From a virus: a DNA stretch of 46,249 nt. Positions 10,720 to 44,963 of this stretch are shown piece after piece. Below the pieces are notes generated by a model. The model was not told the origin of the DNA, ran no database searches, and saw only the letters and a program-made list of their open reading frames with translations. The position numbers were made by a program, and so were the translations under genes. Within the stretch, counting starts at the first letter, position 1. The number at the start of each line of letters is the position of its first letter. The stretch is taken from positions 1-46,249 of IMG/VR virus record IMGVR_UViG_3300020141_000048, one strand, 5' to 3'.

Positions 10720-10720
10720 A

Positions 10721-12480: not shown

Positions 12481-15400
12481 TTATCCTCGATCGAATGTTG
12501 TGTTTATACTGTCAAGTGTTCCTGCGCCCGAATCAAACGTTGAACTTCCTTGCGGTCCGTTTTCATATTTATTGTTATCGACATACCATATTCCAGGAGT
12601 TGCTTTCAAGAATGAAGCAACACTATTATTGTCATCTAACAAGTTAACTGCGCTGTCCCACGATACGCCACTGCGTCTCACTACCGTTACCTGTGTGCCA
12701 GCTATCAACGGAGTTGTTAAATTAATAACTGCCGTAGTACCGTTTACAGCAAACTCTGGCGCAAAGGTAATATCGCCTTCAGGACTATCTGGAGCAATAT
12801 TAGCATTGTAAACTTTATAACTGTCTTTTCTTAAACGAATATTTCCAATGAAGAACTGCCACTTACTACTATCATTTAAAAATACCAACGAGCTGGTATG
12901 GGCAGTTGTACACCTATAAGTATAGCTACCAACAGTTACTATAGTGCCAATAGTATAAGCAACGCCTTGCGCCCACTCACTATCCACTGGATATCCGCCA
13001 ACAAATACTTCAACATCAGCAGGAACCTGACGTAATACTTCGTGAGTAACTGCATCCTTAATAGGATATAGCTTAGGAATAAACGATACAGGAACAACTG
13101 TTGTGCCGTCTGAAATAATTTGTTCCGCTACAACTTTATTGTTATAAGGAATAGTTTCGCTTGGCCCAATATCTTGTACGTAAGAAGTTATAGGATGAAC
13201 CATCGGAGCACCGGTTCCTAATGTTGCTCGGCGTAACTGCCCTAGTACCCATATGTCGTCTTCAACATTATGATTAATAGTAAAGTACTCAATACGCTCT
13301 CCTCGAATTTCAACAATACCTGGTTTGTTGCGTAGCGGGTTAGGAATATCAAAATTGCTAGCATCTTGTACAGTAATAGTCAAGTCGTTATATTTTAAAG
13401 GTTGAACAAGTTGTGTTTGTTTATTCAAACTTAAACGCTTGAAGTGGTCTCTGTTTAACATATCTTTAAACTGCATATAAGCAATGCCAGGCGTCAATAC
13501 GTTGCTACTGTAAGTGATAACTTGGAACTCATCACCGGTATAGGCATGTTCTGTCAACTTAACAACTTGCTTATCATCAGTTAATATATAATCAATATTT
13601 GGCACTAATAATGAACCATTTTTTGTAATCCAAACATAGCTGTCACTAACTACAGCTCTGTCTAAGACAATAGTTCCGCCTGTAAGACCAGCATACGCAT
13701 AGTATTCAACAGTATCAGGAGTTATAGATAATGTGTTGTTAATTGTAATATTTGTTCTTTCAATGTCAAGAATATCATGTTTATAAGAACTAATAACTTC
13801 AATTAAATTAGTATTGTCATACACATCAGAGAATATAATTCGTGTAGGGTTAACACCACCAGCTGGCACGTATGTATATCCTTGCTCTTGTTTAATATTA
13901 ACTATTAACTTCTTATTCTTATACAAGTCGTACACTGCTCTGGTTATCTTAATACTAATAACACTTAAATCAACGGTGTAATCTCTGCCCACTTCTAAAA
14001 TGTTGCCGTCAACAAATACAAAAATCTGATCCACATCTAGCGAATACGGAGCAAATCTGTTTGGATCAATAACATAAGTCAATCTATTAGATTTAATAGC
14101 ATAGTAGCTGTTGGTAGGACCTTTGAGAATTTGTTGGTCTACACGAACAATCATATTTGATTCCATTGGTAGAGCATCACCTACTTTATTAACTAACTCG
14201 TATGTTGAAGTTCCGTTTGGCAGTAGTGTACCCGAATCTATATTTTCTCGGCCGTCGGCAATGATACGTTCTGTTTTAGTTAACGCAAATGTTTGCTCAG
14301 CACCAGCAACAATTACAAATGTTACTAAGTCTCCAGAGTCTGGAGGAGCTCCAAATCTAATGCCTACTCTGTTAGGACTATCGTAAGTAGTATCAGTTTT
14401 AAATGCCTCGTATATAGCTGGCATACCATTAATGTATACAGCCGATGTTAAACTTGTCAGCCATGGAGCTCGTGTAACAAATTCAAGAGTAGTTCCGTTG
14501 CCTTCAAAATAATCAATGTCTAAGATATTTTCTCCGGAGAATCCAAAAGTAAATATTGTTACAATTTTGTTTGCGTACGGTGGATTTACAAAAACAATTT
14601 GCTGATCCTTATAGTCAACTGTATAATCTACTCCTACTGTTTGTAATACAGATGAATTAATATCTATAACTTTTACAATAACAGCTTGTGAGCTATTTGG
14701 AACTTGTTTTAAATCAAATCGTAAAGTAGACCCGTCTGCTCTATGGCTATCAATGTCAATTTTAGCACTGGCAGAATATGGCTTGTCAAATACTTTTAAC
14801 GCCATAGCATCAAAGACTTGGCCGGGCACTACTTCTTCTGTAGCCGGGCTACTTGTAGGAGTAACAAATCCGTCACCGTCGACAAGTATATCTTCAGCAC
14901 GTAAACCAGTAGCACTGCTGTAGGCCATGTCGCCGCCAGCAAGAGCAGTATCGTAATCTTTCTCTTGAGGCTTAATAGAACCGTCACTAGTACTGCGTCT
15001 AATAATGATTGTATCGCCTGCGCCAACAACATAAGTTCCAGGAATTTCAATATCGTATGTATTAGCGTCAAATGTTGAGCTAATGCCAGTTGAAATAATT
15101 GGAAGCATAATTGCTAACGGATTAGTCTGTTGAGGTGTTCCGTAGTACGGGTCATCTAAACGTATAGGAGTTCCATTTACTGGAATATGATAAATGTTAA
15201 TTTGTTCGTTAATTGCCGGTACATACTGTAGTTGCCATTGTGTATCACCGGCTCCAGTTGTTGTAATAAAGTCGTCAAATGTTGGATCAACACTGTCCCA
15301 ACGCTCGCTAAAGTAAGGAACACTGTCCCATCCTTGGCTAACATTAAATCCCAAGCCGTCAACAATTACACCACCATAGTCAACACCAGTCATTAATTGT

Positions 15401-18400
15401 GACAAGTCTTTACCTAGCTGTCCTGACTCAGGATTATAATAATATTGAACTCTATCGGCAGCGTTTAGTAATGCCCAATCTTTCAAGTAGGTTACTGAAA
15501 TAACTGAGCCTATCGCAGGAGCATTTTGAAGGACTAACGAACCGTTATAGCTAGTATAGCCTTTTGCAGTTGATTTAGTCTTAGCTAGTTTATATTCGTC
15601 GCGGAGAACATCTATGCCGTTGACGGTAACCGATGCTTTGCCAACACGAATATCTGGACTCCACTTCAACGCAAATTGTAATTTACTACCTGTTCCAATG
15701 AATGTTTCAGTTTCTTCTAATTGCGTAATAAAATATGTACGTGTTATACGGTCAAATTTCATTTTAATTAGTTGAGATCTTACAACACCGTTACCAATAA
15801 TAGCCACAGCTCTAGCCGCAGTGCCGCCTTGATTTAGGCCGCCTTCAATTAGAATTGTAGGAGCAGACAAATAACCAGAACCTGGATCAAGTAACACAAT
15901 TCTGTTTACTCGGCCGTTAGTTATAAATGCTCTGGCCTTGGCACCAGATCCAGAATTGCTAACAAATCTTACAACGGGTTCTAAGTGATAATCTTGACCG
16001 TTGTCTATTATTTCAATACTAGTGATTTGATAGCTAGAATTATCTAACCAATTTTTCCAAGGGTACGTATTTAAATTAGCATCGCTATATACTAACTGGT
16101 CGTTAACTACATTAGCATTTACTACTGCAATAGAACCATTCTTATAAGCAGGCTGTAAATCAAAGTCGCTTACTAAAAGTTCAGCAGGTTCTAGTTTTGT
16201 GTAATTGCTTATATACTCTCTAATTTGAGTTCTATATGGTTTAACTTCGGCAATATATGCTTCAAAGTCTTCCAAGTTATCATTTTTGTAATTACTAGGT
16301 TGATGAAGTTCTCCAACATTATGCTGTGCTTTAATAAAACTTGTCTTAAAAATCCAATCAAGATACGTTTGTTCGCTCATGGCGTAACGTACACTTGAGA
16401 AGAATAAATCTAAATAGGTCTGTTTTAAAGTATCTGTTAAAATATTATCTTTCAACGAGACAATAATATTTCTAAGCTCAGTACTTGCTGAATTGTCAAA
16501 GATAGATGCGTCAAATAACTCTCCATCATAACCGTAGGTTGTATTACTAAACGAATACAATGAACTACTAAATTGTATTGTGCCGCGTTGTTGGGCCACA
16601 ACTTTATAACTTTGTGTCCAATCTATGCTCGTAGAATTAGCATACTTTTCTAATATAAACCAAGTTCCACTACTTGTTGTTCTAATTTTAACAGTTTGGC
16701 CTATAGAAACTCTCAAAGCATTTAAATCTGAGAATGTTTCAATAGAATAATCTACAATTGAATAGACACTATAGCCGCTGTCATACCAATCAGTGTATGA
16801 CCAATATTTTCTTGTATCGTAAGACTGGCTACGTAATCTAGACCAAACTTTAGTCGATGGACTGTACGCATATATACTCCAGCTATTAAGTGCTTGAGTA
16901 TCCGAATGTACCAACACTGCATAATTTCTAACAGACAATGTAGTATCATCGCCATAGCCGTAGCCTGCGTTAATAACAGTTGCTCCGGTAATTTGGCCTT
17001 TAATATTAATAATAGCTCTAACTTTTGCGCCATGGCCCGATCCCATGATATCAATATACGGAGCAATAACATATCCTCTGCCAGAGCTAACTACTTCAAT
17101 GCCTACAAACGATCCGTTTAATATAACCGGAGTAACAACTGGAGCTGTAAAAGATCCGACGTTGGCAAATCGTAGTTCAGCATCAGTGTCTAATACTGTA
17201 TCGTACAGACCAGTGTTAACACTAGGTTTTGCTTCATAAGACTGTAATAGATTAAAATCTCGTTGCCCAGAAATTTGTACAGTAATTAATGCTGCATTGA
17301 CACGTTCAATAAATTGTTTTAGTGCTTCAAAGCGATTAACAAAGATACCCTGTCGAGGACGATTTTCAATTCCGTATTTAATTTTTGGAGGAAGAGCAGG
17401 ATCCGGAACTAGTCGGCCAGCAATGTCTTTACCACATAAGCTGTCAATCCATTTCTGTTCAACAGTTGCTGGTAGTGTAGTATCAATGCTATCATTAATA
17501 ATTTTCCATTGACTATGAATATTTTGATTGCTATGGTCGGCAATCCAGTATTCTACCGATAATACTACATCTGTATTTTCTAAATCATTTTTAGCATTTA
17601 CTAAACTAAAAGAATTGCTACTAGTTAAGGCAAGATATTTGTATCCTTGTCCTCTAGTGTTGCCTATTAAACTAGAAACATCTTGTGCGGACATGTGTCT
17701 ATCTAATGTATTTGGAATAGTCTTTTTATTTTTAATCCAGTAATAGTAGGTATTCTTAAATATTTTGCCAACGGTATCATATTTTTTAATAACGCTATAT
17801 ACTGTATTTCCGTATAAACTAGTTCCACTAACACCTTGTGCTAGGCCAACTTCAGTGTCAGCAAGTTTATTCCATTCGGCTGGCAACAATTTAGTTTCAA
17901 CCCATTCGTAAATGTCAATACTAGCAAAAGGAAATAGTGTATTCCATGTGCTGTTTCTGTAAACGGAATCGTCTGTAACTGCACTATCTATAAATTTAGC
18001 AGTTCTTAAATCCCACCATAACATGCCAACTTGTGTCTTTTTCCAAGCAATACCGTCGTCGACTGTTACAGTTGAATCTCCCACAGAGTACACTGCTGGA
18101 TCGTAAAATGTTTTATATTTAATTTCCTGTTCAGCAGGGCCTGGTATTTTACCCTGAATAGGATCAACAACATCTAAGTATGTAATTAATTTGTTAGTAG
18201 TTTTATTATACAAAAACGCAGATTTAATTTGTGTTAAATCTATTTTATCAGTTTCTTTATGTAATGTATTCCAACTATACGTATCAGCTTTTTTACTATA
18301 TGTAAAAATTCTACCTGAGTTAACTGCTCCGTCTATCGCATACGGAGCACTAATAAAGATAGTGTTGGCGCCTACTGCGGTGCTGTATCCGTATCCTGAA

Positions 18401-21400
18401 GAACTGTTTAATTCTGATACTAACGATTCTCCAAATACCCAAGTATTTGCGTACTTGTCGTAAACATCAACTCGGCCGCTATCTATATTTTTAGCAAGAT
18501 AAAATGTAGTTGTATTATCGTCAAATGTTGTATTATCTTCTAGTATCCAAGGATTAACAACATCGGCCGAAGCACTATAGACTACAAGAGTCTTAAAGTC
18601 ATTCATAAAACTAATTTTAGTTCCAAATAACTCTGACTGCTCGGGATTAGTATTTGTAATACTTACAGGAGAAACATACTGGCTTCCGTTATATGTATAA
18701 ATTAATACCTGTCCTTGATCCAGTAATTCGCCGTCGAATAGTATTGAGGAAATTCCAAGATAAGTGCCGCTATCAGAAATTGTAATACTATTTCCAAATT
18801 TAATATCAATGCCTGTAATTGTTTGAATTCGTGTATAAATTCCGCCAAGATTTTTATAAACAAATACCTTACCTACTTGCGTTGTTCCTGGAGCAGATAC
18901 TACTAGCGTAGAAGAATCCTTGCTTACTGCTAACGAATTACCAAATAACGATCCGGCAGGTACACTTTCATTCATGCCTGTAGTATCGTGATAAGCCCAT
19001 CCTGTTACTGTAAATTGTAATTTTCCAAACGGATCCCCGTCAGGAGCTTCACTCAATTTTAAAGTAGTAGTGTTAACAACTTGTTGAACTAGTTGATTTT
19101 TTGTAAACCCAATACCTGAAATATTCATTCCTAGTTCAATTCCAACAGTTGAATCTACTTTAATTGTTGTTCCAGAACTCCCTACTGGATTATAAAATGC
19201 TGTAGCTTTTGTTCTCGTATCGTAATCTAATTGATAAACTCGTCCAGTAGAATTTGCTTCTGTTATAAACAATTTATTGTTTCCAAACGCTAATGTTGAG
19301 CCAAAATATCCATCCAGAGTTGGTGTCGGGCTAGTGAATGTTGAAATTAAAGAATACAATCCGATACTATTTTTAAAGAATAGAGTGACAACTCCTTGAC
19401 CTGTTGGGCCAGTCTCAGTGCCGTCTATTGATGTTTCTATTAAACTTGCTTCTTTCCATAGTAACGGGTTTGTAGAAGGTTGGGTGGTTGTTGATACCGA
19501 TGCTTTGTAAATTTTGTTATCGATATTATCTTTAACTAAATCGCCAGCACTATAGCTCGATCCGTTGTATAGTCCTTTGTAAAAAGTCGAAGCACTGCCT
19601 GCGCGGGGACTTCCAACTGCTAGCCATGCGCCCTCTGGCGAAAACGCAGAAATTTCATTAGCCCATTCTGGTAAATTAGGATTTGGACTATCAGCTGAAA
19701 TTAGTGGTACTGGAATAATGTCTTGTTTAGACCAAGGTACTCCAGGAACTGCTTTAGTGTATAAAGACATCTGGCCTGATATATCTGATACAACTAACAC
19801 ATTTCCGTTTTGATTGGTTGCCACATTTCTACCAAATAAGGCATCTTCTACTGGGAACGAATTAACTATTTCTGATTGTGAATAAACCGTATTATATCGC
19901 AATGTTGCCCACTTGCCATCACCCGCATCTTTAGTCCATACTAGTTCATTTGGAAGTCTTTCTTTAGTTAGCACAGAATCTATATCATCGATATGGTTGG
20001 CTAGTTGTGTTGTCAACGAGAATATTCTAATATAGCTATTAGCAACATACGGTACCCAACCGGTAATGGTAGATACAATTTTAATTAAATTAGCGTCTAT
20101 TGAATTTATTTTATAGAACCCAGAAAATGTTCCTGTTTCAACACCTATATAACTTCCAACAGGTAAGTCAACTATTCTATCCATTTCAATAGTTAATGTT
20201 CCAGACGCATACGTGGCATTAGTAACCGCTGCCTGATATGCTGTATATCTATATACGTTCCATTCGCGGCCTTCAAATCCTACCCATACGTAATCTCCGT
20301 TCGAGTAGTCAGTAATATTTTCATTTACAATATCGTCTATAGTTTTTAAAACTACCTTGACCTCATCTTGTCTAACAAAGCCGGCTGTACGTAGGTACGG
20401 TTTATAATTAGAAACTAAGGGCCATGGATTGCTGTTATATCCCAAGGGCTTTAAGTAAATATCGTTAGGTGTTTGTCGAATAATAAAATCTATAACATCA
20501 GGATTTACTGTTTGTACTAGCTCTATTCCTTGCGGATTATTTTTAAATAGACTTTCGTCTAAATTAAATTCAATATTTTCAAAAGCACTGCTGGCTCCGT
20601 ATTGTCCAACACGTATTGCCCACTCTTCGTAAAACTTTAAACTTTCTTCGCCTTCAGCACTTAGTACATCAAACAATTTATTCAAACTATTTTGTGTACC
20701 CTTTTCAGCAATCATGCCTTGATAGAATTTAAATTCACTAACATCGTCCTGAATAATGTTTTCTAAATACTGGCGCTTTTGATAACCAACTAAATGTTGG
20801 GCCATCTTTTGTTGCCCTGAATCAAAGTTGTCACTGTCTAGGCTATAGAAATCTTCAAACTGTGCGGCCTTGTATGTCCAGTTTGGCAACAACTCAGGCT
20901 TAGGTTCGGTAGCAAGTTTAATCCAATTACTAGATTCAAACTTTAAACTTCCTGTAAGGCTAGCTAGTGCGCTATAATAAAATTCTTTGTATTTTACAAC
21001 TTCGCCTAGTGGGTAATCAGTCCACGGTTGCCAGTCACTAATTTTTGCCTGGTCAAATATAAAGCCGGGTGCCGAGAAAGATCCATTCCAGTTAATTGTT
21101 ACATAGCCAGAAACTTTAATACGTTCTTGACGGTATCCGCTTTCTTGATTATAGACAGTATCTCCAAAAATTGTAGTATTGTTTAATAGCACAACTTGTT
21201 CTTTTTGTATTAGATAGAAACTTGCGCCAAAAATGCCAGCTTGGCTCCTCGGCGAATAACTAACTGCGTTATCTTCTCTATAACTATCGATAAAGGCGTC
21301 TGCTATAGGAGAACCGTCAACTTGGTATACTTCATATCCATTAAACGCATTTTTAATATCTTCAACAACACACAAGTCTGTGGCAAATGTTAACTTGGCG

Positions 21401-24400
21401 GCCGCTGGACTTAATGATATAACGCTACTTCCAACTGTACTTAATCCTTCTAATTTAATAAAATTAGATTCGTTAAAAATAGAATTTGGAGCCTGTGTTA
21501 CAAGAGATTGATAGTAATCTCCGTTATATCTTACAATTGACTGGAACGGTATCTCGGCTCCTGGATTCCAATCATCCCACTTGTCTTGACCCGTTGACCA
21601 TTTCTGTGTGGTCCAGAATAAGAATTCCTTGGCACTAGTTTCCCAGTTTGTAATAGCAACTAAATTACTATTGTAATCATCAAATATAAATCCTTGATCT
21701 TTTAACCATTCGCCATAGCCTATTAAAAAGTCATATGTTTCTTGAATTGATCGGAAAATTGTGCCGTAAGGGACTGTAATTGCGTCATCTCTATCCCACA
21801 AAATTCTAGAAACTACGTTTATGCCGCCATTAATTGGTAATGCGGCCAGAGACGAATAATATTTTAAATCAAAATCCGTAGTAGCAGTATGAGATACCTT
21901 TACTCTATAGAATCTATTACTGTTCAATACAATCTTGCCAGCGGTGTATGTTGAGCCTAATGACCAAGAGGTATATGATTCGCTGATACCGCCAACATTA
22001 ATCTCGCCGCCGGCCTGAGTCCACGCATAGTATTTAAAGAGAGGTTGTGTTTTAGTATAACCTTTAACTTCAAATCCTGCTGCCAATTTAGTAATAATAA
22101 CGCCGCTATATATTACTTTTTTAACTGGGCTAGAAGAGTTTAAAATAATATCGTAGTCTTCTGGAGGAACAAATACACTGCCAACAGCCGTAGGAGTTCT
22201 GCTATCTAATAAAAGATTAAACTTTTCTTTGCTGGTAAACGCTCCTATTCTATAGCTTAATTGTGCAAATACATTTTTTAAATCGTATGAATAACTTGTA
22301 TACGATTTTAAATTATCTTTTAAAATATAATCTACGATATAATTTACGATGCCAGAAGTTTGGACTCTAGTTTTGCTAGTATATGTACTAGGTAATACTA
22401 TGCTAGATGGGGTTACACGCAATCCAGTATCTTTATAAACTAGTTGTCCTGTTAGGTTGCGAATTACTCTAGATCTGTCTAATAACAGCCCAAACACTTG
22501 AGCAGGTTTTAACAATAGCGAAGTAATTAAGAAACTAAATGGATAGTAACTGCTACGGCGCCATGCCGCTTCGACAGGACTCACATCTCCAAAAATAAAA
22601 TCATTTCTAATTGATTGCATAATTGGTGGCTGAGCAAACCCAGTAGTAAACGGATCTACTAATTGTCCCATATTGTTTACTGGAATATGGTCCAACAAGA
22701 AAGTTCTTATATATTTTTTTAACTCAACTGGCGATTTACCAGGTTCTTTTAAAAGTCCCTTACTAATATCTTCCCACATAACAAGATTGTCGCTAGTGTA
22801 AGGCGCAGGGCCGTATACGTCTTGCCACCACTGTGGTTCTACGGTTACTCCTAGCATTTCCCAAGGACAGATATTAGGTCTATCAGTATCGTATATCCAA
22901 CGGTAAATACCTCTCCAATATCCTGGTAAGAATTTGCCGTCGGGGCTTACATATTCTTTATAGTTAAAACTTAACGGATTTGTTTTATCAAAACTTAACG
23001 GTTTTGTAAAATCTCTATCAACTAAACTTGTCCACTTATAAAATTGTGGAGATAATATCTCATTAAATTCTTTTAAAGTAAATTCAGTTTCTCGAATATA
23101 ACTAGGAAGAATATCAGTAATATCAAAAATAGTAGGATCATAATCTATTTTAATATTGTTATAGATACGTTTTTCTAATTCTAAGATTAAATCATCGCGG
23201 TAATCTTCGTAGGCCAATATGTGGCTACCATCATGACCTTGAATCATCCAACGACCAGCTGGATCGCCGGCAGTGTTTAATGTAGTATCGCGATATAGTT
23301 TAGGCTCATACTTTGGCCATATTCCTAATTTAGTAGGAGTTTGTGGAATAAAACAACCATCGGTACTATCATATTCGTACACTGAAATTGTATCATCATT
23401 TTGAATATCTGCTTTAATTACTACAAAACCCTGGTTACTAAATTCGTAATCTTTGCCATATAGTAGTTGAGTATCGTTAAGATAAACATATACCGCTCTA
23501 TTTGATAATTCGGCAAGATCATATACAGTTGTTACAGGATACGTCTTTATTCTATAATCAATAACGTTATAGTGATTAACAATATACGCAGAGCATCCTG
23601 CCATATCTGAAAAATAATATGGGCCGGTGACTGGTTTGTCTTTATTAATAGCTTTTAAAATAGCATTAACATGTGCTATTGTATCGTCAATAAACTCAAA
23701 ACTTAGTGTGTCAATAACACTAACAAAATTACGTTTAAATGCGCTATAATCATCTCTTGCTTGCTCAACAGCTCTAATTGCGTTACTTGATTGGCTTGTA
23801 ATATGGTACATACTCAAGCTCATTGGGCCGCTATGCTGTACAAACTTAGTGCCATACGCAGATACATCACCGAGGTCTCGAAGGTTGCTAGCGCCGGGGA
23901 ATGATCCTGTAAAAGTAGTTAAATTATCAACTATAGAACTTACGTGGTCAATTACTTCACCAAGTGTGAAATCGGCCATTGTACCGTTTAATGGATTATT
24001 CTGTAAGTTAACAGGAATTTCATAATAACCGTTATTGTTAATAGGCTGGCGAGCATAGGCTTTTATTGTAAGTACATCAGTTAATGTAATGTCAGTATTC
24101 AAGATAATTGTCTTATAGCTTACATTAGAAACAAGTTGCCACAAACTAGCATCTAGTCTAGTACCGTTAACATAAACTTTTACTCGCAAATCGTCAAGAT
24201 TCGATACATCTTCAAAAATGTCAATATCAAAATTATTTGTCTTATTTGAATTCTTGTAAATTCTTACGGCAGCTTGAACATTTTTTACTAGTGAGGTTTT
24301 CCAGCCGTTACCGTAACTAACTAATCCTGTAGACGGAGAAACAGTCAATAAGTACCCAGTATCAGTTTTAGCATCTATAACTGTTGAGATTTCTTTATAC

Positions 24401-26247
24401 TGAAAAGAATCTGTTAAAATATTAAAATTAAAAATAATATCGCCAATATTATTAATATTTTTATACGATAGCGCAAATCCTAAGCTGGCATCGGTTGTAC
24501 CCGTTCCTTGCTTATATGAAAATAACTTAGTACCTTTAAATGTAGAACCGTTGTAAACTGTAGTATCACCGAAGCTATTACTGTTGTTGTCAACAATATC
24601 AAACAAAGGTGGCTGATTAGTTATATATTTTTGTTGGCTTAAATACCAAGCAGAGCCGTCAAACCAATAAGAAAGTCCCTTACTGATTTTACCATTTTTA
24701 ACTACTACGGTATCGCCGTCACTGGGCTCATCTTCTAATACCAAGTGTATCTGTCTACTTCCAGAGTTTAAATGTAGCAAATCTATAAATTCAACTCTAA
24801 AAATCTTATTTTTTACCAGACTATCTTCGTCAGCAGTACACAAAATACGCTGGCCGTTAGCTAACGGTACGCCGTCAATATTATATCCAAATGATCCTTC
24901 GATAGTAGAAAATACATCTGTTGTAAAATTATCTACCAAGTCGACATCGCGAATAGCACGGGTACCAAAATTAAATAATTTTAACCCAGCATCAAACTCT
25001 AAAATAGGACGAACAGCTCTATTATTTTGATCAAGTTTAGCAATGTTTCCGTTTATCTTAGCACTAAGTTCAATAGCATCTTTATGAAACCAGCGATTGT
25101 ATCGGGTCCATGGATTTTTATCTAAACTGGCTCTATTAATAACATGGTAGTCTATAGAGGAAGCAAGAGCAGTGGCATCACTAAATGGGTCTGTATCGAA
25201 TGATGTGCTATCAAATAAAATTGATTCCGTTAATGTATAGGAACTAACTAATTCTAAAGAATCTTTATTAATTAATGTAATAGCTGTACCGACGCCGTCT
25301 ACATAAAATTGACCTTTAGAATATGTTTCTGGAGATACATTGCCAATAAATTTAACTAACATACCGTTAGTTAATTTGTCGCCAGACGGTAACGTATATG
25401 TTTTCTTTCCAACTATATCTGCGTCAACATCTATAAATGTATTTTCATCTATGGATAAAATTTGTATTACTCCGCCAACATCTATATTAGATTCACTAAC
25501 ATAGTATAATACATCAGGAGCATCAAATGGAATAGTGATTGTCAATGTACCGCTTTCAATTGCAAACTGATTAAAGTCAAACGTCTGGTATCTATCCAAG
25601 GATCCTGCTGTTCTTTTTGTTTTAATACTAAACGGATTACCTGGACTGGCAATATCAAAAGTGTATGTTTGTCCGCGTAAAAGTCGTAGTGTTGGATTGC
25701 GACTAAGGCCGTTAGGAGTGAACACATACTGATAAGAATTAAATTCAGACTCTAAAGAAACAGTGTATGTACTTTCTATTGCTAGCTGTTGTCCGGCAAT
25801 TTTAACTACATCTGGACCGTTAGGAAGCCAATAGTAATTTTGAAAATTAACAATTTTGTCCCAGTCGATATGAGGATTCCAACTGTAAAATTCCTGCGAA
25901 TTTAAGATAGCATGGTTGCTAGTATTACTACCAAATACTCCAAGTTGATTAATATAGTCCTGATAGTCTTTAAAAAAGGTAACATTATCTAGATTATCCT
26001 TAACTGTTATGCCGGGTTCTAACTGATAATCTTGTCTTTTTTCGGAACTAGCTTTGATGAATAAATCAGTGCCAACCGTAGCTTTGCTATTTTGACGACC
26101 AATGTAGCCGTTAATTTTTTTAACTGTTCCTGGCTGTACTAGCTGATCTACTGTAGCTTGTATAAATTTTTTGTTAGCGTCAGATCTATAAAATCTTGGA
26201 AGGAAGTTATAGCTACCAGTTTGATTTGGATTAACCTTATCAGCCAT
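12481..26247 (-). CDS. Giant multidomain baseplate or tail structural protein (4588 aa)
   Basis: One uninterrupted frame of 13.8 kb. It follows gp6 with an 8-base overlap, the place held by gp7 in T4, but it is over four times longer than T4 gp7 (1032 aa). No sequence link to gp7 was established. The N-terminus (PRFYRSDANKKFIQATVDQL, then FQNYYWLPNGPDVV) resembles large structural proteins of marine T4-like phages. Visible modules are: several W-Y-G-Y-W units like CBM5/12 (near 1420, 1555, 1735, 2220 and 4420); an FG-GAP-like propeller region (about 2130-2655); two GxGY...P...GSGA modules (about 3035-3095 and 3400-3490); and repeated V-x-(V/L)-N-G...DY...I units (about 3515-4250). No catalytic motif or membrane segment was seen. 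It probably builds the wedge periphery. Confidence 0.85.
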   Translation of the reverse strand: MADKVNPNQTGSYNFLPRFYRSDANKKFIQATVDQLVQPGTVKKINGYIGRQNSKATVGTDLFIKASSEKRQDYQLEPGITVKDNLDNVTFFKDYQDYINQLGVFGSNTSNHAILNSQEFYSWNPHIDWDKIVNFQNYYWLPNGPDVVKIAGQQLAIESTYTVSLESEFNSYQYVFTPNGLSRNPTLRLLRGQTYTFDIASPGNPFSIKTKRTAGSLDRYQTFDFNQFAIESGTLTITIPFDAPDVLYYVSESNIDVGGVIQILSIDENTFIDVDADIVGKKTYTLPSGDKLTNGMLVKFIGNVSPETYSKGQFYVDGVGTAITLINKDSLELVSSYTLTESILFDSTSFDTDPFSDATALASSIDYHVINRASLDKNPWTRYNRWFHKDAIELSAKINGNIAKLDQNNRAVRPILEFDAGLKLFNFGTRAIRDVDLVDNFTTDVFSTIEGSFGYNIDGVPLANGQRILCTADEDSLVKNKIFRVEFIDLLHLNSGSRQIHLVLEDEPSDGDTVVVKNGKISKGLSYWFDGSAWYLSQQKYITNQPPLFDIVDNNSNSFGDTTVYNGSTFKGTKLFSYKQGTGTTDASLGFALSYKNINNIGDIIFNFNILTDSFQYKEISTVIDAKTDTGYLLTVSPSTGLVSYGNGWKTSLVKNVQAAVRIYKNSNKTNNFDIDIFEDVSNLDDLRVKVYVNGTRLDASLWQLVSNVSYKTIILNTDITLTDVLTIKAYARQPINNNGYYEIPVNLQNNPLNGTMADFTLGEVIDHVSSIVDNLTTFTGSFPGASNLRDLGDVSAYGTKFVQHSGPMSLSMYHITSQSSNAIRAVEQARDDYSAFKRNFVSVIDTLSFEFIDDTIAHVNAILKAINKDKPVTGPYYFSDMAGCSAYIVNHYNVIDYRIKTYPVTTVYDLAELSNRAVYVYLNDTQLLYGKDYEFSNQGFVVIKADIQNDDTISVYEYDSTDGCFIPQTPTKLGIWPKYEPKLYRDTTLNTAGDPAGRWMIQGHDGSHILAYEDYRDDLILELEKRIYNNIKIDYDPTIFDITDILPSYIRETEFTLKEFNEILSPQFYKWTSLVDRDFTKPLSFDKTNPLSFNYKEYVSPDGKFLPGYWRGIYRWIYDTDRPNICPWEMLGVTVEPQWWQDVYGPAPYTSDNLVMWEDISKGLLKEPGKSPVELKKYIRTFLLDHIPVNNMGQLVDPFTTGFAQPPIMQSIRNDFIFGDVSPVEAAWRRSSYYPFSFLITSLLLKPAQVFGLLLDRSRVIRNLTGQLVYKDTGLRVTPSSIVLPSTYTSKTRVQTSGIVNYIVDYILKDNLKSYTSYSYDLKNVFAQLSYRIGAFTSKEKFNLLLDSRTPTAVGSVFVPPEDYDIILNSSSPVKKVIYSGVIITKLAAGFEVKGYTKTQPLFKYYAWTQAGGEINVGGISESYTSWSLGSTYTAGKIVLNSNRFYRVKVSHTATTDFDLKYYSSLAALPINGGINVVSRILWDRDDAITVPYGTIFRSIQETYDFLIGYGEWLKDQGFIFDDYNSNLVAITNWETSAKEFLFWTTQKWSTGQDKWDDWNPGAEIPFQSIVRYNGDYYQSLVTQAPNSIFNESNFIKLEGLSTVGSSVISLSPAAAKLTFATDLCVVEDIKNAFNGYEVYQVDGSPIADAFIDSYREDNAVSYSPRSQAGIFGASFYLIQKEQVVLLNNTTIFGDTVYNQESGYRQERIKVSGYVTINWNGSFSAPGFIFDQAKISDWQPWTDYPLGEVVKYKEFYYSALASLTGSLKFESSNWIKLATEPKPELLPNWTYKAAQFEDFYSLDSDNFDSGQQKMAQHLVGYQKRQYLENIIQDDVSEFKFYQGMIAEKGTQNSLNKLFDVLSAEGEESLKFYEEWAIRVGQYGASSAFENIEFNLDESLFKNNPQGIELVQTVNPDVIDFIIRQTPNDIYLKPLGYNSNPWPLVSNYKPYLRTAGFVRQDEVKVVLKTIDDIVNENITDYSNGDYVWVGFEGREWNVYRYTAYQAAVTNATYASGTLTIEMDRIVDLPVGSYIGVETGTFSGFYKINSIDANLIKIVSTITGWVPYVANSYIRIFSLTTQLANHIDDIDSVLTKERLPNELVWTKDAGDGKWATLRYNTVYSQSEIVNSFPVEDALFGRNVATNQNGNVLVVSDISGQMSLYTKAVPGVPWSKQDIIPVPLISADSPNPNLPEWANEISAFSPEGAWLAVGSPRAGSASTFYKGLYNGSSYSAGDLVKDNIDNKIYKASVSTTTQPSTNPLLWKEASLIETSIDGTETGPTGQGVVTLFFKNSIGLYSLISTFTSPTPTLDGYFGSTLAFGNNKLFITEANSTGRVYQLDYDTRTKATAFYNPVGSSGTTIKVDSTVGIELGMNISGIGFTKNQLVQQVVNTTTLKLSEAPDGDPFGKLQFTVTGWAYHDTTGMNESVPAGSLFGNSLAVSKDSSTLVVSAPGTTQVGKVFVYKNLGGIYTRIQTITGIDIKFGNSITISDSGTYLGISSILFDGELLDQGQVLIYTYNGSQYVSPVSITNTNPEQSELFGTKISFMNDFKTLVVYSASADVVNPWILEDNTTFDDNTTTFYLAKNIDSGRVDVYDKYANTWVFGESLVSELNSSSGYGYSTAVGANTIFISAPYAIDGAVNSGRIFTYSKKADTYSWNTLHKETDKIDLTQIKSAFLYNKTTNKLITYLDVVDPIQGKIPGPAEQEIKYKTFYDPAVYSVGDSTVTVDDGIAWKKTQVGMLWWDLRTAKFIDSAVTDDSVYRNSTWNTLFPFASIDIYEWVETKLLPAEWNKLADTEVGLAQGVSGTSLYGNTVYSVIKKYDTVGKIFKNTYYYWIKNKKTIPNTLDRHMSAQDVSSLIGNTRGQGYKYLALTSSNSFSLVNAKNDLENTDVVLSVEYWIADHSNQNIHSQWKIINDSIDTTLPATVEQKWIDSLCGKDIAGRLVPDPALPPKIKYGIENRPRQGIFVNRFEALKQFIERVNAALITVQISGQRDFNLLQSYEAKPSVNTGLYDTVLDTDAELRFANVGSFTAPVVTPVILNGSFVGIEVVSSGRGYVIAPYIDIMGSGHGAKVRAIINIKGQITGATVINAGYGYGDDTTLSVRNYAVLVHSDTQALNSWSIYAYSPSTKVWSRLRSQSYDTRKYWSYTDWYDSGYSVYSIVDYSIETFSDLNALRVSIGQTVKIRTTSSGTWFILEKYANSTSIDWTQSYKVVAQQRGTIQFSSSLYSFSNTTYGYDGELFDASIFDNSASTELRNIIVSLKDNILTDTLKQTYLDLFFSSVRYAMSEQTYLDWIFKTSFIKAQHNVGELHQPSNYKNDNLEDFEAYIAEVKPYRTQIREYISNYTKLEPAELLVSDFDLQPAYKNGSIAVVNANVVNDQLVYSDANLNTYPWKNWLDNSSYQITSIEIIDNGQDYHLEPVVRFVSNSGSGAKARAFITNGRVNRIVLLDPGSGYLSAPTILIEGGLNQGGTAARAVAIIGNGVVRSQLIKMKFDRITRTYFITQLEETETFIGTGSKLQFALKWSPDIRVGKASVTVNGIDVLRDEYKLAKTKSTAKGYTSYNGSLVLQNAPAIGSVISVTYLKDWALLNAADRVQYYYNPESGQLGKDLSQLMTGVDYGGVIVDGLGFNVSQGWDSVPYFSERWDSVDPTFDDFITTTGAGDTQWQLQYVPAINEQINIYHIPVNGTPIRLDDPYYGTPQQTNPLAIMLPIISTGISSTFDANTYDIEIPGTYVVGAGDTIIIRRSTSDGSIKPQEKDYDTALAGGDMAYSSATGLRAEDILVDGDGFVTPTSSPATEEVVPGQVFDAMALKVFDKPYSASAKIDIDSHRADGSTLRFDLKQVPNSSQAVIVKVIDINSSVLQTVGVDYTVDYKDQQIVFVNPPYANKIVTIFTFGFSGENILDIDYFEGNGTTLEFVTRAPWLTSLTSAVYINGMPAIYEAFKTDTTYDSPNRVGIRFGAPPDSGDLVTFVIVAGAEQTFALTKTERIIADGRENIDSGTLLPNGTSTYELVNKVGDALPMESNMIVRVDQQILKGPTNSYYAIKSNRLTYVIDPNRFAPYSLDVDQIFVFVDGNILEVGRDYTVDLSVISIKITRAVYDLYKNKKLIVNIKQEQGYTYVPAGGVNPTRIIFSDVYDNTNLIEVISSYKHDILDIERTNITINNTLSITPDTVEYYAYAGLTGGTIVLDRAVVSDSYVWITKNGSLLVPNIDYILTDDKQVVKLTEHAYTGDEFQVITYSSNVLTPGIAYMQFKDMLNRDHFKRLSLNKQTQLVQPLKYNDLTITVQDASNFDIPNPLRNKPGIVEIRGERIEYFTINHNVEDDIWVLGQLRRATLGTGAPMVHPITSYVQDIGPSETIPYNNKVVAEQIISDGTTVVPVSFIPKLYPIKDAVTHEVLRQVPADVEVFVGGYPVDSEWAQGVAYTIGTIVTVGSYTYRCTTAHTSSLVFLNDSSKWQFFIGNIRLRKDSYKVYNANIAPDSPEGDITFAPEFAVNGTTAVINLTTPLIAGTQVTVVRRSGVSWDSAVNLLDDNNSVASFLKATPGIWYVDNNKYENGPQGSSTFDSGAGTLDSINTTFDRG

Positions 26248-39403: not shown

Positions 39404-39829
39404 ATGTCTTGGACTTATCAAAACGAAATCGTAGAAACTCTACCCGAAGAGTGTGTGGGTTTTGTGTACTTGATAACCAATACAATCTCTGGACGCAAAT
39501 ATATAGGCAAAAAACTTGCAAAGTTCGCTAAAACAACTTACAAAGTTGTAAAATTAAAGAACGGAACCAAGAAGAAGAAAAAAATTAGAAGTAAAGTTGA
39601 CAGTGACTGGCGAGATTATTATGGCTCGAGTGATGCGTTGACAAAAGATATAGACACCCTAGGCAAAGAAAACTTCGCAAGAGAAATCCTATATTATTGC
39701 ACATCAAAGGCGCAATGCTCTTACATCGAGGCCAGAGAACAATTTACAAACAAAGTATTAGAATCATCAGATTGGTACAACGGGCACATAGCAGTCCGAG
39801 TACATGGCTCCCATATATTAAAATCATAG
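39404..39829 (+). CDS. GIY-YIG-like nuclease domain protein (141 aa)
   Basis: The N-terminal half carries the split GIY-YIG signature in degenerate form: GFVYLITN at 19-26 and RKYIGKK at 31-37. A basic loop (KLKNGTKKKKKIRSK) follows, then SDWRDYYGSSDAL, LGKENFAREILYYC and CSYIEAREQF, a layout common to small phage GIY-YIG proteins. There is no separate DNA-binding domain as in homing endonucleases of the SegA or I-TevI type. It may therefore be a host-directed or repair nuclease rather than a mobile element. It lies 3 bases after the small basic protein and ends the recombination operon. The hairpin-rich gene-free stretch follows immediately. Confidence 0.7.
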   Translation: MSWTYQNEIVETLPEECVGFVYLITNTISGRKYIGKKLAKFAKTTYKVVKLKNGTKKKKKIRSKVDSDWRDYYGSSDALTKDIDTLGKENFAREILYYCTSKAQCSYIEAREQFTNKVLESSDWYNGHIAVRVHGSHILKS

Positions 39830-40336: not shown

Positions 40337-41281
40337 ATGAAAATCCACGAAATTGTTATAGAAGCAAACTTACTAGGTACAGCTCTTGGAGCAGGTGCTA
40401 AAGCACTAGGCCTTGGTGCTAAAGCTGCACCTGAAGTTGGTCCTGAAGTTGCCCAAGGAGTACAACAGCTGGTTAAACGCCGCGCTACAAATGCCGCTGC
40501 CAAGGATGGAGATTCGTGGATTGAAAAAGGTGCCGAAAAAGCACGTAAGGCCCAGAAAGATAAGTACAAGGCTGTACAACGAAGTCAAATGGCCGCTGTT
40601 GCTGTTAAGCACTACGGTGAAGAAACTATTAGTTTGTTTAAAACTCTAAACTTAATTGACATTGCTGTAGAGTACACTTATGAGTTTTTCAAATTACAAA
40701 AAGAACGTGCTACAATTGGCGAAGAAGAATACAGTCGTCGTCTAGCAGAACTAAACGGCAAGAAGCTACTACAATGGCTAGCACCAAAAATTGCTACAGG
40801 CATTGCCAACAAGGCTTCGTTATTGGTTAAATGGATTCCTGCTATTGCTAGATGGGCAAAATTTCCAGCTACAGCACAGTTGATGCAAACAATTCCAGCA
40901 GTTGTAACCAGCGGAGCGTTCACTGCTTTCTTTGCCAGTCCTGCTGGCCGTAAGTGGACTGAAGATGTGTTTGGCGGATTGATCACAGGACTTGGACAAA
41001 TTCCAGCATTTTTAACAGATTTTATGACAAATGTAGGATCAGGAATTAAAGCAGGTAAAGAAATGTGGGACAAAGCTGATAACGCGATTAATGGCGGGCC
41101 TGAAGGCGGAGCAAAGCCAAGTGCTGATAACGGCATCGGTGGAACTTCAACTGGCCCAGTTGGCACGGGCGGCAAAACTAATCAATCAACTGCTAATTTG
41201 CCTAAAGACGCATACGGTGATCCTATTAAAACTAAAGGCTGGGAGCAAGGAAACTTTAGCTTAGGCAACATACCGCGTTAA
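40337..41281 (+). CDS. Putative internal (head-packaged) virion protein with capsid targeting sequence (314 aa)
   Basis: The N-terminus MKIHEIVIEA resembles the capsid targeting sequence of T4 internal proteins (IPI begins MKTYQEFIAEA), which the prohead protease gp21 removes after Glu. Here cleavage would fall after E9, although Val rather than Leu/Ile stands at P3. The body has a Gly/Ala-rich N-terminal part, a charged helical segment (about 55-95), a hydrophobic and amphipathic stretch (about 140-215, LLQWLAPKIATGIANKAS, then TIPAVVTSGAFTAFFASP) and a disordered Gly/Ser/Thr tail. It could be a protein ejected with DNA. The stop overlaps the convergent gp26 extension by 4 bases. The specific function is unknown. 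Confidence 0.6.
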   Translation: MKIHEIVIEANLLGTALGAGAKALGLGAKAAPEVGPEVAQGVQQLVKRRATNAAAKDGDSWIEKGAEKARKAQKDKYKAVQRSQMAAVAVKHYGEETISLFKTLNLIDIAVEYTYEFFKLQKERATIGEEEYSRRLAELNGKKLLQWLAPKIATGIANKASLLVKWIPAIARWAKFPATAQLMQTIPAVVTSGAFTAFFASPAGRKWTEDVFGGLITGLGQIPAFLTDFMTNVGSGIKAGKEMWDKADNAINGGPEGGAKPSADNGIGGTSTGPVGTGGKTNQSTANLPKDAYGDPIKTKGWEQGNFSLGNIPR

Positions 41282-42326
41282 ATTAAAGCCATCTGACTAG
41301 CTTTGGTATTTTCAACGTTTTCTTTAATAATTTCTGCCAGGATATTTAAATCTTCGTGACTGTAACGATCCATCAGATCGTTAACGCTTACTCCGCCTCG
41401 CATGAACCAACTAATCCGGAACAGTTCTTCTTTGAATTTGTAAACTTCTTTGTCAAGCCTAACCAGGTACTCTTCGATTTCTTGGTTAGATAATCTAGTT
41501 AGGCGCTTGCGAAAAAATTTGCTTGATCCATTTCAATAGCAAATGTATCTTCATGCCCACATTCCGAGCACTTGGCATTATTAGAAGGGATGCGCCATGT
41601 GTCATTATTTTTGCTGATATGCTCTTTAAGTGCTTCAAATGTTGAACGGTCAGTGTTCTCTAACCATTCTTTAATAAAAGCATGTTCAGTAACTACTCCG
41701 TTGGGCATTTCAACTTCTTCCACACCCGCTATGTAAACCTTGTTTTGAAGTGCGCCAAGCTCTTTGAAAATTTCCGTAAGGGCTTTTTGTTTAGCATCCT
41801 CGTCAGTTAAATCAATTGTTTGACTAAGTTTCTTCTGTAAACCGAAGTTTTCTAAATTGAAACTTGTTACTTCTCGATAGGTTAACGGGCGTAATTTGAC
41901 AGTTAAATCGCCAACTACAACTTTAGAATCGTAGGCACAGCTATTAAAATGTTCAAGGATTTTACCCAAATCAATGTCATATTCCGCTTCAGCGCCGCAA
42001 TTTTTACACGTATACATTATTTCTAAATTGTTGCCGTAAGTGGCAATACGCACAGCAACCAGTAGAGCATCGATGTCTAAGTTACTAATATCCCACGCAT
42101 CTTTAACAATAGGACAGCAACTTTCTAGAACTTTAACAGTTGCTTCCCCGCTAATCAAGGCATCCGGAGTCTTTAATAATATCTCATCCATACCCGTCAT
42201 ACCAAATATAGGCATGTTTTCAATGTCGCCTTGTAAGGTTCCAGGCTTGTTATAAATGCCATGACTGGGCAATCGTACAAATACTTTGGGTTGTCTAAAG
42301 TACTGCTGTAATGGATTAATTGACAT
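41278..42326 (-). CDS. gp26 -1 frameshift product, tail chaperone-like (349 aa)
   Basis: Predicted fusion made by a -1 ribosomal frameshift. The first 271 codons are gp26; slipping at A-AAT-TTT then continues for 78 codons in the -1 frame to a TAA at 41278-41280. The extension has no ATG, GTG or TTG between the last in-frame stop, just upstream of the heptamer, and its well-formed body. That body reads LSNQEIEEYLVRLDKEVY, ELFRISWFMRGGV, then LMDRYSHEDLNILAEIIKEN. This resembles a small conserved reading frame next to gp26 in other T4-like phages, from memory. It fills the whole space up to the convergent 314-aa gene, overlapping stops by 4 bases. The arrangement copies the G/GT tail chaperones of lambda. 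Confidence 0.7.
41499..42326 (-). CDS. gp26: Baseplate hub or tail assembly protein gp26-like (275 aa)
   Basis: T4 gp26 family (T4_baseplate, PF12322 type) by PKVFVRLPSHGIYNKPG at 13-29, MPIFGMTGMDEILLKTPDAL at 38-57 and VRIATYGNNLEI at 92-103. A split zinc ribbon is formed by C107-x2-C110 and C253-x2-C256. T4 gp26 is 208 aa, so this version is longer by about 65 residues. The zero-frame product ends four codons after the slippery heptamer, giving FFASA. The gene is transcribed divergently from the tape measure gene, with a perfect TATAAATA upstream. gp26 proteins act during hub assembly in T4; the frameshift suggests a chaperone role for the tape measure. Confidence 0.88.
   Translation of the reverse strand: MSINPLQQYFRQPKVFVRLPSHGIYNKPGTLQGDIENMPIFGMTGMDEILLKTPDALISGEATVKVLESCCPIVKDAWDISNLDIDALLVAVRIATYGNNLEIMYTCKNCGAEAEYDIDLGKILEHFNSCAYDSKVVVGDLTVKLRPLTYREVTSFNLENFGLQKKLSQTIDLTDEDAKQKALTEIFKELGALQNKVYIAGVEEVEMPNGVVTEHAFIKEWLENTDRSTFEALKEHISKNNDTWRIPSNNAKCSECGHEDTFAIEMDQANFFASA
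41514..41520 (-). promoter_or_regulatory. Slippery heptamer A-AAT-TTT for -1 frameshift in gp26
   Basis: On the minus strand codons 269-271 of gp26 are GCA-AAT-TTT, so the heptamer X-XXY-YYZ is A-AAT-TTT in the correct phase. The zero-frame stop TAA comes at 41499-41501. Downstream, CTAACCA (41483-41489) can pair with TGGTTAG (41459-41465), and CCTAAC (41498-41503) with GTTAGG (41458-41463); either might stimulate slipping. Confidence 0.7.
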
Positions 42327-42386: not shown

Positions 42387-44963
42387 ATGGCAAAAACTGT
42401 TGAAGAATTACTACAAGAAAACAACGACCTGTTAAGAGCGCAACAGAGTAACCGCGGCGGCGGCATTGGATCTGCGCCTGCGTCTAAAACAGACAAAGGC
42501 TTGCTTAGTGGCTTGGACAAATCTACAGCAGGACTAGCGAGCGAAGTTGATAAATCTGCTAAAACCTGGCAACAGGCCAGCAACGTTGGTATAGGCTTTA
42601 ACAACGATGCTATTGGTTTAAGAACTAGTGTAGCACAGACTCGACTAAGCACCGAAGAGTGGGGCGATACGATTAAGAAAGGCGCAATAGGATTTACTGC
42701 GCTTGGCGGCACAATGACAGACAGTGCTAAGAAATTTAATCAGATGTCAGCTTCATTTAGCGACACTACTGCCGCCGACGAGTTACGTAAAATTGGTTTT
42801 ACTACCAAGGAATATAATGATGTGCTGGCCATTAGCTTGGCCGGCAAGAAAGGTCAAGACCTTTCTACACTAGAAGGACAGCGTAAAGCCAACATGGCGG
42901 CCGCCGATCTTGCTCTTGAAATGGATAAAGTAGCACAGCTAACAGGTGTTAGTCGTCGTGAGCAACAAGAAGCATTACAAGAAAAACAAAAGAATGCTCG
43001 TGTACAAGCTACAATCGAATTAGAAATTCGCAAAGGTGGCAAAGATGCCGCTGATTCTTATTTGAATATGTCGACTAAGTTAAAAGGAGTTGGCTTAGAT
43101 AAGTTAGGTGATGAACTATATACAGGACAAGCATTAAGTCAAAAAGCTATAGCTCAGATGAATGCCTTAGGTCCAGCTGGCAATCAATTACGCGAAGCTA
43201 TTACTGCAACTAAAAACGCAAAATCTGAAGAAGAAAAAGCGGCCGCAAAAGCAATGATGGACCGTGCGCAGTCTGCAATTGCCGAACGTCAAACAAGTAC
43301 AGAGTACTTGACTATGGTACAACGTGGCCAGGGTGATGTTGCCGAAGCGGCAGGCGAAGGAATGATTGCCGCTCGTAATTATAACAAAGGTATTGAAGAA
43401 GTACAAGCAGAATTTAAAGCGCAAGGTAAAGCTCTTACAACAGAGCAAGCTAGACAAGTGCTTGCTGAACGTGCTAAGAAACCTGTTGACATTGCTACAG
43501 GCAAGGATAAAACTAGCGGTGAAGCTGCCGCTGCCAAGACAACTGAAGCATATGTATTAGCACAAGCTAGAGCCGCTGACGGTGCTGCCAAATTAGAAAA
43601 AGCATTTAATGATGCTAACAAAGCGATTACTGCTAACGGCACTGCTACTAGAAAGGGAATAGATCAACTAAATGCTGGCCTTGCCAACGTCAAGCCTAGT
43701 ACCTTACGTCCAGGTGAAACATCAACTGGCAGAGAACGTCTAGGCCTTGCTAACAGTGAAGCGGCCGGAAAAACTTTAGATGAAGGTGCTAAAGGAAACT
43801 TTAGAGAAGCTGGCAAAATGGCAGGAACTGCCATAATAGAAGCAGTACGAAATTTAAAAGACATTACAACTGGCGCAATAAATGTTACTGGCGGCATACT
43901 TAATGGCAATAAGCCAGTAACTCCTGTCGGTGAGACTGCGCCGAGAGTCAGTCGTGCCGGAGGAAGTCCAAATATTGATAACATGTTGGAAGATTTTGGT
44001 AAAGAAACTCCTGCTATGCTACACGGCAAAGAAGCAGTATTGACTAAAGAGCAACTTACATCTTTAGTTTCTAAAATTGGCATGGCTGGATCTAGAATGA
44101 AAACCGCAATGCCTGATATAAAAATGCCAGATATGGCAAGTCAGCAAACAGAATTACAAAAAGCAGCCACAAGTTTTAAAATGCCTGACATGGCAAATCA
44201 AAAAGCAGAATTACAAAAGGCAGCGGCAAGTATTAAAATGCCAGAAGTTAAAATGCCAGGAGTGACTTCGGTAACAGATGCGGTTACCAAAGCTACAGAA
44301 GATAAAAAACTACAAGACATTAATCGACAAGTAATGGAAATGCAATTAGCGTCGGCTAAAGACGGTGTCATGTTAGACCGTGAGAAAGCTCTTAGTGTTG
44401 TACAGGAAAAAGTAGCCAAAGAAGAAAAAGCAACTGCCGAACAAAAAATCAAAGAAGCTGAAATCAAAGCACAAGCAGACCGCAAGTCCATGCTAGAGTC
44501 AGCTATTAAGAACGGTCCAGCAGACGTAGCAGAGAAAGCTATGAAAGAATTGGCAGGAATAAACAAACAAGAACAAGATAAGGCCAAAGCAGAAAGCGAA
44601 ATTAAAAAGAAAGAAGCTCCTAGTACCAAAGGAGCCACAGCAGATGTTAAAACAGATAATAAAAATAAAGTTTCCAATATATCCAAAACAGTTCCTTCTG
44701 AAATAGCACAGCAAAAAGCCGAAGACGAACGTAAGAAAGCGGCCGCGGCAGTTGCTATAACTCCAAAACCTGCTACCGCAACTGCGGCCAGCACGCCAGC
44801 AGGAGTTGGCAAGACATCAACTCTAGATGACCTTAACGAACAGTTGAAACAGTTAAATAAGAGTATGGGAGAACTAGTATCGCATACTTCAGATGTTTCT
44901 TTACAAGCAGAGAAGCAAGTTAGAGCTACAAAGAGATTAGATCCTAATGTATCTTTAAGATGA
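42387..44963 (+). CDS. Probable tail tape measure protein (858 aa)
   Basis: Long, helical, Ala/Lys/Glu-rich protein encoded back to back with the gp26-type chaperone, as tape measure proteins often are. The first 140 residues look coiled-coil (VEELLQENNDLLRAQQSN). A helical body runs to about 450, then a more hydrophobic Gly/Ala segment (about 475-510). ETPAMLHGKEAVLTKEQ (about 542-558) resembles the P-x-(M/L)-L-x-G-E-A-V motif near the C-terminus of many tape measures. Residues about 570-625 carry a degenerate KMP(D/E) repeat with QKAA spacers. No lysozyme or peptidase motif is visible. T4 gp29 is 590 aa, so the tail would be longer if the rule holds. A scaffold-like role is the main alternative. 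Confidence 0.6.
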   Translation: MAKTVEELLQENNDLLRAQQSNRGGGIGSAPASKTDKGLLSGLDKSTAGLASEVDKSAKTWQQASNVGIGFNNDAIGLRTSVAQTRLSTEEWGDTIKKGAIGFTALGGTMTDSAKKFNQMSASFSDTTAADELRKIGFTTKEYNDVLAISLAGKKGQDLSTLEGQRKANMAAADLALEMDKVAQLTGVSRREQQEALQEKQKNARVQATIELEIRKGGKDAADSYLNMSTKLKGVGLDKLGDELYTGQALSQKAIAQMNALGPAGNQLREAITATKNAKSEEEKAAAKAMMDRAQSAIAERQTSTEYLTMVQRGQGDVAEAAGEGMIAARNYNKGIEEVQAEFKAQGKALTTEQARQVLAERAKKPVDIATGKDKTSGEAAAAKTTEAYVLAQARAADGAAKLEKAFNDANKAITANGTATRKGIDQLNAGLANVKPSTLRPGETSTGRERLGLANSEAAGKTLDEGAKGNFREAGKMAGTAIIEAVRNLKDITTGAINVTGGILNGNKPVTPVGETAPRVSRAGGSPNIDNMLEDFGKETPAMLHGKEAVLTKEQLTSLVSKIGMAGSRMKTAMPDIKMPDMASQQTELQKAATSFKMPDMANQKAELQKAAASIKMPEVKMPGVTSVTDAVTKATEDKKLQDINRQVMEMQLASAKDGVMLDREKALSVVQEKVAKEEKATAEQKIKEAEIKAQADRKSMLESAIKNGPADVAEKAMKELAGINKQEQDKAKAESEIKKKEAPSTKGATADVKTDNKNKVSNISKTVPSEIAQQKAEDERKKAAAAVAITPKPATATAASTPAGVGKTSTLDDLNEQLKQLNKSMGELVSHTSDVSLQAEKQVRATKRLDPNVSLR

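Follow-up and report, generated by a model that had tools for sequence, protein, structure and literature searches.

The locus described here is very probably a T4-superfamily tail assembly chaperone gene in which a -1 programmed frameshift yields both a short product (TAC-N) and a long product (TAC-NC). It lies in the metagenomic virus record IMGVR_UViG_3300020141_000048 from IMG/VR, of which positions 1–46,249, the whole stretch of 46,249 nucleotides referred to below as the window, were analysed. In the mechanism we propose, most ribosomes would read the zero frame and release a 275-aa gp26-like short form, and a minority would slip back one base at T_TTT_TTC and go on to make a 349-aa long form with a gp51-equivalent C-terminus, probably helped by a stem-loop 6 nt downstream as the likely stimulator. 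The two products would then, like lambda G/GT, bring tail tube protein onto the tape measure and be missing from the virion. The occurrence and efficiency of slippage, the chaperone action and the binding to the tape measure are what we infer. The features of the locus and its neighbours are as follows.

41499–42326, minus strand: gp26-like short product (TAC-N), 275 aa, zero frame, matching PF12322 and phrog_150.
41514–41520, minus strand: A_AAT_TTT, the heptamer named in the initial annotation, in phase and lineage-specific.
41511–41517, minus strand: conserved slippery heptamer T_TTT_TTC in -1 phase, ORF codons 271–272, from sequence and conservation.
41505–41510, minus strand: 6-nt spacer between heptamer and predicted stem.
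41495–41504, minus strand: 5' arm of the predicted stem, GCCUAACUAG, which pairs over 10 bp with the 3' arm in the window and in the IMG/VR loci L002 and L003.
41499–41501, minus strand: zero-frame stop TAA, within the 5' arm of the stem.
41457–41466, minus strand: 3' arm of the predicted stem, CUGGUUAGGC, paired with the 5' arm.
41278–41511, minus strand: -1 frame tail, 77 codons (RKRL...MALI) plus stop, with a putative gp51-like C-terminus, from sequence, pN/pS and gp51 profile match.
40337–41281, plus strand: convergent ORF of 314 aa from the ORF list, sharing 4 bases with the -1 frame stop.
42387–44963, plus strand: 858-aa ORF divergent from the gp26-like gene, a tape-measure candidate from its position and remote profile similarity.

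The 275-aa ORF matched PF12322 (T4_baseplate) in a Pfam scan (E 2.7e-17; 63.6 bits against a cut-off of 24.5) and phrog_150 (baseplate hub) in a PHROGs scan (E 1.3e-18), and its C-terminus, ...MDQANFFASA*, is encoded by GCA AAT TTT TTC GCA AGC GCC TAA. Re-reading the sequence confirmed the geometry given in the initial annotation, with A_AAT_TTT phased at codons 270–271, a -1 frame that runs for 78 codons after the slip to a TAA at 41278–41280, and an overlap of 4 bases with the convergent ORF, for which the Pfam and PHROGs scans gave no family match. Fusion to this frame is predicted from sequence to lengthen the product from 275 to 349 aa. A second contig, L001 (IMGVR_UViG_3300020160_000123, 7271 bases), encodes a gp26-like protein and an 858-aa neighbour which are both 100% identical to those of the window.

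The slip had been assigned to A_AAT_TTT, which overlaps T_TTT_TTC in the same phase, and a slip at either heptamer gives the identical chain (...NFFRKRL..., QANFFRKRLTRL). T_TTT_TTC has the X_XXY_YYZ form within the overlap of two frames that is looked for in programmed -1 frameshifting. A tblastn search with the gp26-like protein gave 66 phage records, and a cyanophage-type set was built by searching IMG/VR with S-PM2 gp26, which gave 80 loci, of which 54 distinct ones, S-PM2 included, were tested. Exactly phased T_TTT_TTC was found among widely diverged relatives, in 16 of 17 jumbo-type loci, in all 54 cyanophage-type loci and in four of five further clades (KVP40-type phi-pp2, Stenotrophomonas Ps15, Aeromonas AsFcp_1 and Rhizobium LG08); the remaining jumbo-type locus (XacN1) and the fifth clade (Pseudomonas pf16) carry T_TTT_TTT. 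The jumbo-type carriers are RaK2, GAP32, CBB, Munch, BF, XbC2, XaC1, Kaldavass, SD-1_S14, SCTP-2, PA5oct, Atu_ph07, Phosso and the IMG/VR loci L001–L003, and in these the heptamer lies 10–40 nt upstream of the gp26-like stop and the -1 frame stays open. A_AAT_TTT, on the other hand, was confined among the loci examined to the window/L001 and a single cyanophage-type locus (L072). In L002 and L003, GGT or AGT TTT TTC stands in place of AAT TTT TTC. The heptamer named in the initial annotation is therefore lost in L002, L003 and other phages while both frames persist, an outcome which that annotation had itself taken as evidence against its proposal; alignment across related phages upholds the overlapping T_TTT_TTC instead, and the assigned slip site needs a shift of three bases. 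In Vibrio phage K452 the canonical heptamer is absent, although the -1 frame after gp26 remains open; its gp26 gene ends in ACG CTT TTT GCG TAA (locus L128, approximately 2178–2230), and this arrangement may represent either a second type of slip or reinitiation.

Codon choice is fixed at the site and at no other conserved Phe position. The two Phe columns are TTT and TTC in 54/54 cyanophage-type loci each, and in 17/17 and 16/17 jumbo-type loci, respectively, whereas other conserved Phe columns of the same genes mix TTT and TTC. The codon before the Phe pair always ends in T, even though in the jumbo-type loci it specifies any of seven residues (N, G, S, H, A, R or D). Within ORFs of at least 200 codons in the window, only the gp26 site among 16 Phe-Phe sites reads T_TTT_TTC, and the motif is uncommon elsewhere in the jumbo and cyanophage sets, where the gp26 sites make up nearly all cases. 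The heptamer is thus conserved more than chance would produce. Beyond the gp26 stop, pN was lower than pS in the -1 frame in all 286 comparable pairs (11/11 jumbo, 275/275 cyanophage), which are not independent of each other; between the window and L002, for example, the tail has a pS of 0.64 and a pN of 0.19. These substitution patterns indicate that purifying selection acts on the -1 frame.

The predicted 10-bp stem of GCCUAACUAG and CUGGUUAGGC begins 6 nt past the heptamer, within the 5–9 nt used as the criterion for a stimulator. None of the ten pairs is lost in L002 or L003, the changes there being one compensatory and one wobble; three sequences are too few for statistics. A stem likewise folds from +6 in Atu_ph07, XacN1 and PA5oct, and S-PM2 has a 14-bp hairpin approximately 9 nt downstream. 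Mean folding z was -2.07 for 44 cyanophage-type loci and -1.47 for the 17 jumbo-type loci, among which several RaK2-type phages had no clear stem, with z near 0 or positive. No single consensus stem was found across all cyanophage-type loci, the stems being subgroup-specific.

A T4 review counts gp26 and gp51 of T4 among the hub assembly chaperones (PMC3004832). T4 gp51 is a full-length paralogue of gp26: PF12322 is matched from end to end by both proteins, and gp51 carries an extension at its C-terminus. In profile comparisons, the cyanophage tail matched the gp51 C-terminus at 97.6% and the cyanophage fusion matched gp51 at 99.2%, while the jumbo tail matched the gp51 C-terminus at 76.7% (score 29.7, against a shuffled maximum of 18.4) and the jumbo and cyanophage fusions matched each other at 97.6% over the whole chain, colinear through the tail. 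Column-shuffled profiles served as controls, and the matches exceeded them where these were run. The jumbo and cyanophage tails compared alone gave a borderline match (score 18.9, shuffled maximum 17.0), and the link between them therefore runs through gp51 and the full fusions. The window tail by itself returned nothing useful from Pfam or PHROGs, fusion did not extend the phrog_150 match, and tblastn with the window tail directly found only Atu_ph07 and Phosso. Taken at the level of profiles, the tail is homologous to the C-terminus of T4 gp51, the short form to gp26 and the long form, C-terminal extension included, to gp51. A fold search of the gp26-like model and a T4-type gp51 model against the PDB retrieved no solved relative and no known tail assembly chaperone; in a viral structure library, one weak match (E 0.02) carries the name tail assembly chaperone.

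T4 differs from the window in having two separate genes without a slippery site, where the window has one gene with a -1 site. The same contrast holds more widely: all six phages examined that carry a pair of PF12322 genes (T4, RB43, an Acinetobacter phage, Aeromonas phiAS4, Proteus phiP4-3 and a Krischvirus) lack the heptamer at the gp26 end, and a single PF12322 gene goes with a slip site in S-PM2, Atu_ph07, RaK2 and at least 10 further jumbo phages. SCTP-2 had no PF12322 match at the threshold used, its gene having been found by tblastn. Because of its slippery site with hairpin and its gp51-like tail, one gene could make both of the chaperones that T4 makes from two.

In most records the -1 frame appears as a distinct hypothetical protein beginning at an internal start (e.g. 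GAP32_242), and the annotated gp51 of S-PM2 ('baseplate hub assembly catalyst') is this same frame, so that it could be read as a small gene of its own, translated by reinitiation or from its own start. In some relatives an ATG does lie at or just past the gp26 stop, which makes reinitiation conceivable there. However, the first ATG, GTG or TTG in the window tail is the ATG inside FMRGGV, 36 codons in, with no Shine-Dalgarno-like 4-mer 4–18 nt upstream of it, in agreement with the start-less frame first described at this locus; the L002 and L003 tails also have no start before codon 36, and the PA5oct tail lacks ATG, GTG and TTG throughout. Across relatives neither the position nor the identity of the first start codon is constant, and a Shine-Dalgarno-like motif accompanies tail starts in only 1/17 jumbo-type and 3/54 cyanophage-type loci. 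Together with the conservation of T_TTT_TTC and the fact that in T4 a complete gp26-like domain continues in frame into the tail, this makes a separate gene improbable.

Slippage of RNA polymerase on the T run could also produce mRNA in the -1 frame, as the site consists of six T residues (seven in XacN1 and pf16). Six T is short for transcriptional slippage, though, a C almost always closes the run where a further T would still encode Phe, and many members have a stem at the spacing typical of ribosomal stimulators, all of which makes this route improbable too. That the frameshift is a sequencing or assembly error, or that the gene has decayed, finds nothing in its favour except that the window is a metagenomic virus record; approximately 75 further loci, and isolate genomes submitted as complete, show the same arrangement, the tail is under purifying selection, and we rejected this explanation, which conservation refutes and which we regard as next to impossible. 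Programmed -1 frameshifting by the ribosome therefore stands as our preferred reading, and the initial proposal of a frameshift with a G/GT-like role is well supported by the conserved site, the selection on the -1 frame, the stem and the gp51 homology, the parts that did not stand as given being the heptamer named and the adjacency to a tape measure.

This adjacency is plausible, but the neighbour at 42387–44963 is divergent, has no family match in the Pfam and PHROGs scans and showed no detectable similarity to T4 gp29 or S-PM2p209 in a profile test (in which the L002 row was read one base off, adding noise). The 858-aa ORF has remote profile similarity to jumbo orthologues, and the place of its counterparts beside the portal gene is conserved in most jumbo phages. 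A tape measure spans approximately 0.15 nm per residue. The CBB counterpart, of 722 aa, would thus correspond to approximately 108 nm, and the CBB tail measures 123 nm with collar and baseplate. In the portion of the CBB virion protein list considered, CBB_251, the homologue of the 858-aa ORF, is present as a virion protein with 29 peptides, and the gp26-like CBB_250 was not found (PMC5259590). Atu_ph07 gp701, annotated as tape measure, was set aside as a reference, being only 205 aa long. The cyanophage gp26-gp51 locus of S-PM2 and relatives shares the heptamer, its phase, the -1 tail and the single PF12322 gene, but in S-PM2 the pair is immediately followed, on the same strand, by a 1167-aa ORF that partially matches the tape measure PHROG phrog_9570, whereas the window gene is not cotranscribed with its tape-measure candidate, the two being on divergent strands.

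The 858-aa ORF also contains near-duplicate KMPDMA..Q.ELQKAA repeats and a TPAMLHGKEAVLTKEQ motif. Elsewhere in the window, two subtilisin-like proteases (Peptidase_S8; 5191–6894, E 5e-23, and 8089–10731, E 6e-19, both on the minus strand) are encoded near a gp9/gp10-like gene in the tail region, an unusual cargo for a phage structural module. A single ORF of 4588 aa (12481–26247, minus strand) is flanked by a 1162-aa ORF without Pfam match and by a gp9/10-like gene (T4_gp9_10_N, 10721–12478). A protein with a SegE-type GIY-YIG endonuclease domain (39404–39829; PF19835, E 1.7e-32) lies near gp46/gp47-like genes.

Vladimirov, Gautam and Davidson reportedly identified T4-like tail assembly chaperones in 2022. 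In the passages of two later papers that cite this work, it is credited with some T4-like phages having one short and one long fused gene (PRFect, PMC10885494) and with poly-T slippery signals in T4-like TAC-N genes (phage Adele, PMC12846349). The TAC locus of Vandenendeviridae/Andersonviridae (phage Adele) likewise has a conserved -1 frame, a poly-T site and a downstream ORF recorded as a hypothetical protein in its own right, but its motif is reported as GTTTTT rather than T_TTT_TTC, and the likeness is one of arrangement (PMC12846349). Lambda G/GT and P2 E/E+E' also make a short product and a -1 extended long one by a slip near the 3' end (PMC5009743), but no family or fold similarity to them was detected and the window gene does not precede a tape measure gene in a shared operon. 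Given the 2022 identification of T4-like chaperones, the principle is largely already known, and the idea put forward in the initial annotation is less new than it implied. No description of frameshifting was found for RaK2- or Atu_ph07-type phages in a literature search that was thin in subscription papers, and the evidence for novelty is weak for that reason.

The first ~200 residues have been described as missing from cyanophage and marine vibriophage gp51 (Sullivan et al. 2010, PMC3037559), a truncated look that the -1 frameshift arrangement explains. We lean towards a history in which single-gene -1 frameshifting is ancestral and commonest in the T4 superfamily, RaK2-, Atu_ph07- and KVP40-type phages included, the T4 pair arose by later duplication with loss of the slip site, and gp51 of cyanophages and vibriophages looks 'truncated' only through the way it is annotated. 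A frameshifting review describes G-T frameshifting as a widely conserved trait of phages with long tails, 'except T4' (PMC5009743); this statement, which made T4-type phages the exception to the G/GT rule, is now qualified.

A probable frameshifted T4-type chaperone sits in a lineage where records misannotate or omit it, and RaK2- and Atu_ph07-type jumbo phages, together with an uncultured relative, gain a concrete candidate chaperone pair whose predicted long product is unannotated in the records examined. The same short/long pair would be reached in two ways, from a single slippery gene or from a pair of paralogues. Phages thereby offer a natural experiment, as the slip site is missing from 6/6 two-gene phages, while each phage shown with one PF12322 gene has it; the contrast is drawn over phages with counted genes, and Vibrio phage K452, which has no canonical site, stands outside it.
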